Under the pieces are notes generated by a model. That model saw nothing but the letters and a program-made list of their open reading frames with translations. It was not told the origin of the DNA and searched no databases. A program made the translations under genes and the position numbers. A stretch of 44,488 nt of DNA from Acidimicrobiia bacterium. GTDB lineage: Bacteria; Actinomycetota; Acidimicrobiia; Spongiisociales; Spongiisociaceae. Location of the stretch: the NCBI GenBank assembly GCA_011523395.1, contig WTGW01000090.1:1-44488 (forward strand). Reading direction: 5' to 3'. Of this stretch, positions 1 to 44,399 are shown in pieces. Each line of letters starts with the position of its first letter. Within the stretch, counting starts at the first letter, position 1.

Positions 1-168
1 CAGTGGTCAGTGGTCAGTGGTCAGTGGTCAGTGGTCAGTGGTCAGTGGTCAGTGGATGTTGTAACACGGGACTGTTGGGACGCGAACACCAGGCTGGTGG
101 GCCCGAGGAACTTCCTCACCCATAGGTCGCAAACTGGCCACTGGAAACCGGCCACTGGCCACTTGTCT
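1..168 (+). repeat. Heptad-capped palindromic element, copy A1
   Basis: Positions 1-55 are nearly eight exact CAGTGGT units, cut by the window edge. Positions 56-133 are a unique core containing the dyad CACCAGGCTGGTG. Positions 134-168 are inverted-sense heptads (CTGGCCA, CTGGAAA, CCGGCCA, CTGGCCA, CTTGTCT). The core recurs in reverse at 5108-5182 and forward at 35563-35640. The right-hand heptads run directly into the stop codon (167-169) of the lipoprotein gene. Confidence 0.9.
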
Positions 169-4619: not shown

Positions 4620-5075
4620 ATGGCGCTTGAAGATCTCTACCGCGAGGTGATCCTCGACCATTACCGGAATCCCCGTAACCGGCAGGCCCTCGGGCGGGCC
4701 AACGCGGTCGCCGACGGCAGCAATCCGCTGTGCGGCGACGAGGTCCGGGTCGAATTGCTGATCGAGGGGGGCGAGGTCACCGCGATCGGGGTGACCGGTC
4801 ACGGATGCTCGATATCGCAAGCCTCGGGCTCGATGATGGGCGACGCGGTGAAGGGGCGGAGCATCGAGACGATCCGGACGCTCACCGGCCGGTTCAAGGG
4901 CATGATGAGCATTGACGGCGCCGATGAGCCCGGGCTCGACCCGAGCCGGCCGGGTGCGGTCCTGGGTGATCTGGAGGCGCTCCAGGGAGTCCGCAAGTTC
5001 CCGGTCCGGATCAAGTGCGCCAACCTGCCCTGGACCACCCTCGAAGAAGCCATCAACAACTTCAAGGCTGATTAG
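4620..5075 (+). CDS. sufU: Sulfur transfer / Fe-S assembly protein SufU
   Basis: A 151-residue IscU-like, zinc-binding sulfurtransferase partner of SufS in Gram-positive and actinobacterial Suf systems. The zinc/sulfur-acceptor residues are visible: Cys38 and Asp40 in NPLCGDE, Cys63 in GHGCSIS, and Cys133 in KCANLPW. I chose ATG 4620 (MALEDLYREVILDHYRNP) because family homology begins there. An in-frame GTG at 4545 would add 25 low-complexity residues. The TAG stop (5073-5075) is the first three bases of the TAGTGGC heptad of element A2. Confidence 0.94.
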   Translation: MALEDLYREVILDHYRNPRNRQALGRANAVADGSNPLCGDEVRVELLIEGGEVTAIGVTGHGCSISQASGSMMGDAVKGRSIETIRTLTGRFKGMMSIDGADEPGLDPSRPGAVLGDLEALQGVRKFPVRIKCANLPWTTLEEAINNFKAD

Positions 5076-5227
5076 TGGCCAGTGGCCGGTGACCAGTAGC
5101 CAGTTTGCGACCTATGGGCGAGCAAGGTCCTCGGGCCCACCAGCCTGGTGTTCGCCTCCCAACAGTCCCGTGTTACAACATTCACTGACCACTGACCACT
5201 GACCACTGACCACTGACCACTGACTCG
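5073..5227 (-). repeat. Heptad-capped palindromic element, copy A2
   Basis: This is a reverse-oriented copy. Degenerate heptads at 5073-5107 (TAGTGGC, CAGTGGC, CGGTGAC, CAGTAGC, CAGTTTG) lead into the core, then six exact CACTGAC units at 5183-5224. It occupies the whole convergent gap between the sufU and fumC stop codons. The core matches copy A1 closely once reverse-complemented, including the CACCAGGCTGGTG dyad. Confidence 0.9.
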
Positions 5228-15442: not shown

Positions 15443-15703
15443 ATGCCACACACCAAGTCACAGGAAAAGCGCGACCGGCAGGCCATCGCCAACCGGGGCC
15501 GCAACCGGGCTATCCGTTCCGAGTTGAAGACCCGGACACGTCACGTGGAGGAAGCCGCCGCGAGCGGCGACCGTGAGGCAGCCGAGCAGGCTCTGCGAAT
15601 CGCACAGAAGCGCACCGATCAGGCTGTGGCCAAGGGTGTCCTCAAGAAGAACACCGCCAACCGCCGTAAGGCCAAGCTGGAGCGCCTCGTTTCCAGTTCC
15701 TAG
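15443..15703 (+). CDS. rpsT: 30S ribosomal protein S20
   Basis: An 86-residue basic protein of the small subunit (bS20). The start MPHTKSQEKRDRQAIANRGR and the end KKNTANRRKAKLERL match the family, and the length is typical. ATG 15443 is chosen by homology; the frame stays open upstream through sequence that is antisense to hrcA. It is divergent from hrcA and convergent with holA, the usual location of rpsT next to holA/comEC in many bacteria. Confidence 0.95.
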   Translation: MPHTKSQEKRDRQAIANRGRNRAIRSELKTRTRHVEEAAASGDREAAEQALRIAQKRTDQAVAKGVLKKNTANRRKAKLERLVSSS

Positions 15704-15759
15704 TTCTTTGGTCTCTCGTTTCTAGCTGATAGTTACGGCTGCTAGCGACTAACAACTAG
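15702..15759. repeat. Degenerate heptad tract at the rpsT/holA convergent junction (family C)
   Basis: The 52-bp convergent gap can be cut into imperfect 7-mers (for example TTCTAGC, TGATAGT, GCTAGCG, ACTAACA, ACTAGCC) related to the CTAGCAA arrays at 24611 and 44363. The holA stop TAG (complement of 15756-15758) lies in the last unit, and the rpsT stop TAG lies in the first. Confidence 0.55.
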
Positions 15760-16745
15760 CCTCGATACCAGTAGCAGAGGGCAGCCACCAACCGCTCCAG
15801 GGTCGGCAGGTGGGTCTCCTCCGGCATGCTCTTGAGCGTGGCATCGGTCCTGCGAACCGCGTCCACGGCTCTGTTCAGGTCCTCTCTCGACATGGCCCGT
15901 CCCGCCTGCCACGCCTTCCGGGTCGGGTAGGCGCCGGGCTTGGCGCGGATCCACTCTGCGAACGTAGCCATGTCGGGAGCGGCCGCCGCCAGCGCCCTCT
16001 TCCGGAGGTCGTTCTCGATTGCCGCCACGATGACGAGAGGGTGCCCGTGGGTGAGGAGGTCATGCAGCCGTCGGATGGCGTCGTCCACCACTCCCTTGGC
16101 CAGGGCGTCGGTCAGCTTCCAGAGGGGCTGATCCGGCCGGTTACGGAACCGCTCCAGGACGATCTGATCCGTTACCGGGCCGTCGACGGTGCTCAACTGG
16201 TCGAGAGCCTGGTCGATGGCGCCCACGTCGGACCCGAAGCGTTGGATGAGCGCTTGAGCAGCATCCGAACCGAGGCGGAGCCCGCGCCCGCGAGCGGCGT
16301 TGCGGACCCACCCCGCAACATCCCCGTCGGCCAGCTTGCGGACGGCTATCACCTCGGCATTCCTCTTCACGTGGGCGGCGAGCGGGGTCGGGAGCTTCCC
16401 GGTCGTGACCAGCACCACCGGCCGGCTTTCGTCAGCATGGTTGGCAAGCAACTCGGCCACCACGGCCGCCTCATCGGCCTGGAGTCGATGGGCGTCCATC
16501 AGCATGACGCCCGTGCGCCCGCCGAACAGGGACCCGGACTGCAGGGCGGGCACGATCGGCTCGACCTCGGGACGCAGCATTCCCTCTCCCCCTACCGACT
16601 GGCCCCGGCCCGGCACGTCGATCCGGATGACCTCGGATGGTTCGAATCCGGCGCCGGCCAACAGCTCGCCGGCGCGGTCGAGCAGGCCCCGCCGGTCGCC
16701 CGGACCGGGATTCGTCGGACCCCTCAGGTGGGTGAGCGTCTTCAC
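15756..16745 (-). CDS. holA: DNA polymerase III delta subunit HolA
   Basis: A 329-residue clamp-loader delta subunit that opens the sliding clamp during replication. Recognisable parts are the AAA+-like middle region (LFGGRTGVMLMDAHRL) and the collar segment (RFGSDVGAIDQALDQLS, ALAKGVVDDAIRRLHDLL, ENDLRKRALAAA). The start is GTG 16745. A perfect 10-bp inverted repeat (16745-16754 / 16765-16774) abuts this codon, so initiation may be sensitive to RNA folding. It is downstream of the SDR and comEC on the same strand and convergent with rpsT. Confidence 0.92.
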   Translation of the reverse strand: MKTLTHLRGPTNPGPGDRRGLLDRAGELLAGAGFEPSEVIRIDVPGRGQSVGGEGMLRPEVEPIVPALQSGSLFGGRTGVMLMDAHRLQADEAAVVAELLANHADESRPVVLVTTGKLPTPLAAHVKRNAEVIAVRKLADGDVAGWVRNAARGRGLRLGSDAAQALIQRFGSDVGAIDQALDQLSTVDGPVTDQIVLERFRNRPDQPLWKLTDALAKGVVDDAIRRLHDLLTHGHPLVIVAAIENDLRKRALAAAAPDMATFAEWIRAKPGAYPTRKAWQAGRAMSREDLNRAVDAVRRTDATLKSMPEETHLPTLERLVAALCYWYRG

Positions 16746-24594: not shown

Positions 24595-24610
24595 GCTATG
24601 ATACCTATTG

Positions 24611-24641
24611 CTAGCAACTAGCAACTAGCAACTAGCAACTA
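24611..24641. repeat. CTAGCAA heptad array (family C, copy 1)
   Basis: Four exact 7-bp CTAGCAA units (24611-24638) plus a partial unit fill the convergent gap between the antiporter stop (24594) and the leuS stop (24647-24649). The same unit occurs five times near 44363-44397. No long core is attached. Confidence 0.85.
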
Positions 24642-24646
24642 AATCG

Positions 24647-35434: not shown

Positions 35435-35462
35435 ATTATAGCCCGTGGGCGTCAGTGGTCAG
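35435..35462 (-). promoter_or_regulatory. Putative rpmA promoter with -35 in a heptad array
   Basis: A consensus TATAAT lies at 35435-35440 (complement). Sixteen bp upstream is CTGACC (35457-35462, complement), which matches TTGACA at four of six positions and is part of the terminal heptads of element A3. The predicted leader is about 75 nt, ending in AGGAGG before the rpmA ATG. Confidence 0.55.
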
Positions 35463-35675
35463 TGGGCAGTGGGCAGTGGGCAGTGGGCAGTGGGCAGTGG
35501 GCAGTGGACAGTGGGCAATAGTCAGTGGACAGTGGGCAATAGTCAGTGGTCAGTGGGCAGTGAATGTTGTGACACGGGACTGTTGGGAGGGGAACATCAG
35601 GCTGGTGGGCCGAGAAACTTGATTACCCCCGGGTCGCTTACTGGCCACTGGCAACCGGCCACTGACCACTATCAA
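35451..35675 (+). repeat. Heptad-capped palindromic element, copy A3
   Basis: Positions 35451-35562 are exactly 16 seven-base units (mostly GGCAGTG, with GTCAGTG, GACAGTG and GGCAATA). The core at 35563-35640 matches copies A1 and A2 with more divergence. Five inverted-sense heptads follow at 35641-35675 (CTGGCCA, CTGGCAA, CCGGCCA, CTGACCA, CTATCAA). The element ends 2 bp from the rplU stop and splits rplU from rpmA. Confidence 0.9.
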
Positions 35676-44282: not shown

Positions 44283-44299
44283 CGCTGTGCCTGCCTTTT

Positions 44300-44341
44300 C
44301 AGTGGTCAGTGGTCAGTGGTCAGTGGTCAGTGGTCAGTGGT
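44300..44341 (+). repeat. CAGTGGT heptad array without core (A4)
   Basis: Six exact CAGTGGT units lie 17 bp upstream of the ndk ATG, within its predicted 5' leader. Neither the conserved core nor the inverted heptads of A1-A3 are attached. Confidence 0.9.
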
Positions 44342-44352
44342 CGGTCTAATCC

Positions 44353-44381
44353 AATATAAACCAGCAACTAGCAACTAGCAA
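44353..44381 (-). promoter_or_regulatory. Putative ndk promoter with -35 in a CTAGCAA array
   Basis: TATATT (44353-44358, complement) and TTGCTA (44376-44381, complement) are separated by 17 bp. TTGCTA matches TTGACA at four of six positions and is part of the repeated heptad. Transcription would start near 44346 and run through the A4 array into ndk. Confidence 0.45.
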
Positions 44382-44399
44382 CTAGCAACTAGCAACTAG
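44363..44399. repeat. CTAGCAA heptad array (family C, copy 2)
   Basis: Five exact AGCAACT units (44363-44397) follow the folC coding end. The folC frame runs into them and stops at a TAG (44382-44384, complement) inside the array, so the last residues of FolC (LVASC) are repeat-encoded. Confidence 0.85.

Follow-up and report, generated by a model that had tools for sequence, protein, structure and literature searches.

Many diverged copies of a single core, each carried together with the same type of right arm, were found between genes across the genomes of one genus of Acidimicrobiia. These heptad elements may well be non-autonomous, MITE-like mobile DNA of gene ends, with arms built of 7-bp units, a preference for TAG or CTAG, and sites at which the resident copy is repeatedly replaced. 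The window, i.e., the whole stretch of 44,488 nucleotides analysed here, is contig C25 of a 3.1-Mb assembly in 239 contigs, and contained the following features:

1–163, plus strand: element A1, truncated on the left by the contig start; left heptads 1–55, core about 55–132, right arm 133–163.
About 5073–5226, minus strand: element A2; right arm 5074–5104, core about 5105–5181, left heptads 5183–5224.
15693–15762, strand not given: degenerate heptad palindrome (by eye) between convergent genes.
24608–24644, strand not given: bare (CTAGCAA)n heptad array between convergent genes.
About 35451–35671, plus strand: element A3; left heptads 35453–35562 (16 units), core about 35563–35639, right arm 35640–35670.
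44299–44399, plus strand: hybrid 'core B' element; (TCAGTGG)n left array 44299–44342, short CTAATCCAATATAAA-like core, (AACTAGC)n right array 44359–44399.

A1, A2 and A3 lie where the original prediction had placed three loci with a shared core and heptad arrays. To the right of A1 is a minus-strand beta-propeller gene, the stop codon of which starts 3 bp beyond the element. A2 is placed between a NifU-like gene and a convergent fumarase-type lyase gene, with the NifU-like stop TAG overlapping the element end, and A3, located between rplU (L21) and rpmA (L27), runs in the opposite direction to both genes. The element at 44299–44399 is a fourth, related one, whose short core is not that of A1–A3 and whose arms do not complement each other; together with copies in relatives, it represents a sister type, in which AATCCAATATAAA lies between (GGTCAGT)n on the left and (CTAGCAA)n on the right. 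The CTAGCAA units (24608–24644 and 44359–44399) form a second heptad family, in which the CTAG target itself lies inside the units. At the site of the degenerate palindrome (15693–15762), four relatives carried four different heptad arrays. On the minus strand at 35435–35462, the outermost A3 heptad contributes the hexamer CTGACC, which is followed after 16 bp by TATAAT; the two resemble a promoter directed towards rpmA (10/12 matches; one found vs. 0.1 expected in shuffles). By eye, this 16-bp spacing was kept in the relative G008 but not in G002.

Read in the direction of A3, an element consists of a left arm (CAGTGGN)n, a core of about 70–80 bp and a 31-nt right arm of about four units, ACTGGCCACTGGCAACCGGCCACTGGCCACT, with a total length of about 120–220 bp. 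In the alignment of 28 cores (L037, L042 and L047 were left out of 31 copies), the right arm was nearly invariant, with a median pairwise identity of 90% versus 64% for the core. The left arm comprised 3–16 units in 27 of the 28 aligned copies and a single unit in L035, whose array and core are not in phase; left ends were ragged and rarely CTAG, and eight copies were cut by a contig start or end. The predicted 7-mers of complementary sense on the far side of each core were confirmed, as the right arms of A1–A3 were 77%–84% complementary to the left heptads, i.e., imperfectly so. The 16 units of the A3 left arm were indeed in phase by unit count, but the array was not perfectly repeated, since Tandem Repeats Finder (TRF) scored it at 15.7 copies with 84% matches. 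Like MITEs, the elements are short, non-coding and dispersed in many copies, and their 31-nt arms form terminal inverted repeats, although complementary arms are absent from the hybrid core-B elements. Cyanobacterial STRR sequences are intergenic heptamer tandem repeats. Tandem 7-bp units between genes were likewise present here, but the elements are more than a tandem array because they carry a conserved core and a fixed right arm. All but one of the aligned copies overlapped called genes by < 30%, the exception being L035 (33 of 106 bp).

The proposal of a distinct dispersed element was borne out by searches of the own genome and its relatives with the core. A model of the 28 copies yielded at least 61 matches in the own genome (E ≤ 0.01) and at least 15, 33, 20, 52, 7, 19, 28, 13 and 0 matches in G001–G009, respectively, all lower bounds, as strict filters were on and no more than 65 candidates were scored in each genome. 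Eight of the nine other genus genomes therefore contained this core (core A), with at least 7–52 matches each. The sole genus genome without a match to core A, the 160-bp MITE described below or the heptad pattern was G009. BLAST found 43 matches to the whole element in the own genome and 67 to the core plus right arm, some of them to heptads alone, whereas at an E value of 1e-4, matches were confined to eight of 59 genomes, all within the genus. Outside the genus, 17 of 49 genomes had a model match at E ≤ 0.01 (best E, 2e-9, at model positions 51–104); these matches were weaker, and among those listed there were five, all partial. The right-arm pattern was found in no stretch of the viral contigs.

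The copies usually had an end at a stop codon. For the 31 copies, with genes called by a home-made caller and the badly parsed L042 and L047 counted in, the right neighbour was a gene 3′ end in 21 of 30, and the stop lay at −5 to +7 bp in 18 of those 21; in 10 cases, the last CT of the element plus an A constituted the stop codon (CTA/TAG). When either end was counted by hand, 23/31 copies had an end within the range of −5 to +7 bp around a stop; by a scripted recount, 21 of the 28 aligned copies abutted a stop. In 10 of 13 tandem gene pairs, the stop-side distance was within −2 to 7 bp, compared with 1.9 expected under uniform placement (P = 2.6e-7), although the arms themselves contain stops, so that insertion into the last codons of a gene would also give distances near −2. 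Among 26 right ends ending in ACT, the next base was A in 19 (CTA) and the next two were AG in eight (CTAG), although selection for a stop codon would likewise favour CTA. Across 356 kb (the window and syntenic stretches from eight genus genomes, partly orthologous to each other), of which 90% is coding, CTAG occurred 248 times; 64 of these sites were no more than 10 bp from a stop, and a further 81 lay elsewhere in genes.

A companion 160-bp MITE, termed M180 (L141:3430–3610; loci L328–L357), is abundant in the genus and often sits exactly at stop codons. Its ends are TGGTCTGTCTG...CAGACAGACCA with small variations, i.e., termini TGGTC...GACCA, and of the 29 copies parsed (30 loci), 21 were flanked by CTAG at both ends. 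It lay 0 bp from the stop in 13 of 26 stop-side neighbours, a few of them orthologous, and matched at least 26–49 places in each of nine of the 10 genus genomes; unpaired matches to its terminus were also found among the fetched loci. M180 resembles the heptad element in its TGGTC...GACCA termini, its siting at gene ends and its presence in the same genus, and it occupies three heptad-element sites in relatives (A3, L041 and L032). It differs in that it has terminal repeats and CTAG duplications but lacks heptad arms, and its interior is unrelated. The right end of the heptad element (...GGCCA, then CTA or CTAG) resembles the MITE end GACCA followed by CTAG, and on this sequence likeness we infer that the heptad element would choose targets of the same kind.

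Neither of two candidate partner enzymes was found. For a RAYT/Y1 partner, the Y1 transposase family PF01797 was detected in none of the 10 genus genomes (control rings: 5/14). IS701-type elements have a YTAG target; no partner of this type was found with DDE_5 (PF13546), which was absent from the same 10 genomes.

According to the favoured reading, a transposase supplied in trans would recognise the arm ends (TGGTC.../...GRCCA) and prefer TAG/CTAG targets. Insertions would gather at gene ends because CTAG is scarce inside genes and is often part of a stop codon, and they would often bring in a new stop codon. Once inserted, an element could gain and lose left-arm units by 7-bp slippage, with the right arm remaining fixed, presumably as the recognised end. 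Sister or other heptad elements might later displace the resident, either by inserting anew or through recombination between the arms they share.

Such displacement was assessed at orthologous sites, the flanks of which were mostly 84%–99% identical and permitted base-level comparison. At the A2 site, G001, G007 and G003 had a different heptad array (that of G001 failed the strict lag-7 test), and G002 had a plain spacer. At the A3 site, an element with the same right junction was found in G008 and G002, a short spacer in four genomes (with CTAG in three of them, not in G004), and the 160-bp MITE in G001 and G005; the junction CCACTA/TCARGG was thus common to three genomes, with the cores in different clades. 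Another 28 sites were examined, 14 of them against four relatives and the other 14 against three; the 86 comparisons comprised 14 with core A, 17 with another lag-7 array and 55 with neither under the strict test, some of these 55 holding degenerate heptads by eye. At least five of the 31 array-positive comparisons represented inherited copies. As a control, window sites that were array-free in the own genome had an array in 5 of 179 comparisons, four of the five at one site where the own genome has degenerate heptads. The difference (31/86 vs. 5/179; Fisher P = 9e-13) is indicative only, as the stretches compared differ (230 bp beside the flank vs. the whole spacer), and the window array sites alone (4/12 vs. 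5/179 pairs) provided a weak test. At the same site, the unit sequence differed between close relatives, and at L035 an element stands in place of a 38-bp spacer common to three relatives. For a target duplication of the heptad element, no clean empty/filled pair was found among the same-site comparisons.

The core phylogeny was consistent with replacement. There were 16 same-site core-A copies, 14 of which (excluding L037/G001 and L038/G006) entered a tree of 61 cores in which some places are present twice, having been fetched twice. Five of the 14 grouped with the own genome's copy, and these inherited pairs had core identities of 89%–100%. The other nine, including both A3 counterparts, were not sisters of the own genome's copy (support 71–100, several only 71–89); in five other same-site pairs, cores were 56%–74% identical at the site and 65%–78% identical to a copy at another site.

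A possible, though less probable, explanation of this turnover is recombinational cassette exchange: arrays would form locally at the ends of genes, and the only route by which cores spread would be homologous recombination or gene conversion via the heptad arms that elements share, with no transposase involved. It would account for the A3 site, where the right junction is identical and the cores come from different clades, for hybrids that combine the arm types of both families, and for the replacement of the whole spacer at L035, and it agrees with the lack of both transposase families (PF01797 and PF13546) in the 10 genus genomes. However, since relatives had no strict array in 55 of the 86 comparisons at element sites (again, some with degenerate heptads by eye), a first arrival is still needed under this explanation, and the fixed right arm and the core are carried together at 28 or more sites, like copied units.

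The elements could instead be hairpins selected at gene ends, with the paired arms terminating transcription or stabilising mRNA 3′ ends, and some hairpin being maintained by selection while the sequence drifts. We consider this unlikely, although the siting at gene ends and the persistence of some array at many sites fit it. Folding located the palindrome in the arms rather than in the core: compared with shuffles, the core alone had a mean RNA z of −0.1 on either strand, with compensatory changes in none of the 12 predicted pairs of its consensus structure, whereas arms plus core reached mean values of −3.1 and −2.4 on the two strands. The stem formed by the arms thus speaks for a hairpin, and the unstructured core without covariation, the non-complementary arms of the hybrid elements, the failed array test at many orthologous sites (55/86) and the absence of an orientation rule in tandem gene pairs (7 vs. 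6) speak against its selection. The same values of the core ruled out its reading as an RNA element; at gathering scores, the single Rfam match in the window was a tRNA. They also bear on the central dyad CACCAGGCTGGTG, which had been predicted for all three loci. It is exact in A1 and A2 and has one mismatch in A3, but it was within one mismatch in only five of the 28 family copies and marks one subfamily. The notion of a palindromic core could therefore not be upheld for the family, given this restriction, the lack of compensatory pairs and the hybrids that pair non-complementary arms.

Polymerase slippage alone, which would make these ordinary heptamer simple repeats, is very improbable. 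Period 7 is strong in the genus. In the 356 kb, strict arrays numbered 17 at lag 7, and 11, 6 and 4 at its multiples 14, 21 and 28, compared with none at lags 4, 5, 8–11, 15 and 18, one each at lags 6 and 13, and two each at lags 12 and 24; chance is excluded as the source of the lag-7 arrays. In a looser scan, all 24 lag-7 arrays were intergenic and none was genic, even though 90% of the sequence is coding, whereas lags 5 and 6 gave eight and 29 genic arrays and none between genes, lag 9 gave one intergenic and 17 genic arrays, lag 10 gave one genic array, and lag 8 gave none. The homogeneous left arms of mostly 3–16 units also fit slippage, and a heptamer excess has been published, as far as extracts of the reports go (PMC6344855, PMC4692102). 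However, slippage can neither copy a 70–80-bp core with a fixed right arm to dozens of places nor account for units that differ in sequence when close relatives are compared at one site. It is thus refuted for the core and right arm and holds for left-arm length only; the original argument against slippage is correct for core dispersal and the fixed right arm, but not for the homogeneous left arm of varying length. Finally, an assembly or binning artefact, for which one could cite the several own-genome contigs that start or end inside heptads (8/28 aligned copies cut, making copy numbers and some left flanks uncertain), is refuted by orthologous copies, because separately assembled relatives hold the same family at the same sites, including five same-site copies with 89%–100% core identity.

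According to the extract available, a survey covering 7006 prokaryotic genomes found tandem heptamers to be the most abundant intergenic short tandem repeats and gave no clear indication of what they do (PMC6344855). A paper of 2009 reported heptanucleotide sites in inverted pairs from Geobacter metallireducens, with a putative assignment to IHF/HU (PMC2700814). These class 3 sites resemble the present elements as multicopy tandem heptanucleotide arrays in inverted pairs but have the consensus MTYCTGA, and the accessible part of that paper describes no conserved core, stop-codon siting or ortholog comparison. The heptamers TAACTGA of Beggiatoaceae (PMC4679880) and GGGAATC of Xanthomonas (PMC4692102) are likewise intergenic 7-bp tandem units, but the excerpts of these reports describe no inverted arms around a dispersed core; the roles they propose are RNA-binding sites or G-quadruplexes. 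The Xanthomonas heptamers lie nearer to the 5′ neighbouring ORF and, in two species, mostly occur between the same gene pair with changing sequence, according to the same excerpt (PMC4692102). BrickBuilt of Porphyromonas gingivalis is, like the present family, a dispersed intergenic MITE with a tandem repeat; in the available portion of its description, however, 23-nt units are set between leader and tail ends, and the copies lie 49–591 nt from the nearest genes rather than abutting stops (PMC4596501). REPs and REPINs, associated with RAYTs, are also small extragenic palindromes thought to spread non-autonomously, but the extract seen gives them as 20–40 bp long and GTAG- or CGTC-tagged, and the GTAG class is linked to tyrosine (Y1) transposases (PMC3733652), which were found in none of the 10 genus genomes here. 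Among the titles and abstracts listed (short extracts, with few subscription journals), none concerned the present element or other heptad-armed elements of gene ends in Acidimicrobiia.

Heptad patterns were also found in other phyla. Matches to (ACTNNNN)4ACT, with overlapping matches counted apart, numbered 235 + 206 in one Acidobacteria genome and 15 + 12 and 47 + 33 in two others, 94 + 51 in a Caldilineaceae genome, 65 + 68 in Hymenobacter and 89 + 67 in a Chitinophagaceae bacterium, compared with none in a Gemmatimonadota genome, a Streptomyces genome and G009. As the reversed-pattern control was also high in several genomes, probably due to arrays that also contain that phase, these counts are a description and not a test. 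Many of the Acidobacteria matches occurred as minus/plus pairs about 15–32 bp apart, and in the genome G059 many such pairs fill the spacer between two genes (rough gene calls). At loci L251–L269 of G059, the spacers hold heptad palindromes of about five units, a short loop and five units, and at least one arm pair is identical at several places. The stop side was nearer in only 21 of 41 tandem pairs at the Acidobacteria loci retrieved, where start calls are unreliable, so the stop-codon rule is not established outside the genus.

A more speculative and rather doubtful proposal is that intergenic heptads in many bacteria are fossil transposition junctions, each unit joining a CTAG-like target of 4 bp to a transposon end of 3 bp, so that period 7 would derive from 4 + 3 and not from polymerase slippage, and that heptad-armed palindromes of gene ends constitute a single class of mobile element across phyla. 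The units here may then be parsed as CTAG+CAA, TCAG+TGG and CTGG+CCA, and those elsewhere may correspond to CTGA+NAA or CTGG+CAA (Acidobacteria, Hymenobacter) and CTCA+AAA (Chitinophagaceae). The constant ACT/AGT of the arms may be the seam between an ...A end and a CT.. target.

The family shows heptads as the arms of a core-carrying, putatively mobile element that is positioned at stop codons and swapped between close species, which bears on the commonness of seven-base repeats between bacterial genes. An origin of heptads by transposition or recombination, beyond slippage alone, becomes directly testable with strain collections. Gene ends in this genus are remodelled by small repeats, which affect the stop codon, the last residues, the spacer and, at A3, perhaps a promoter.
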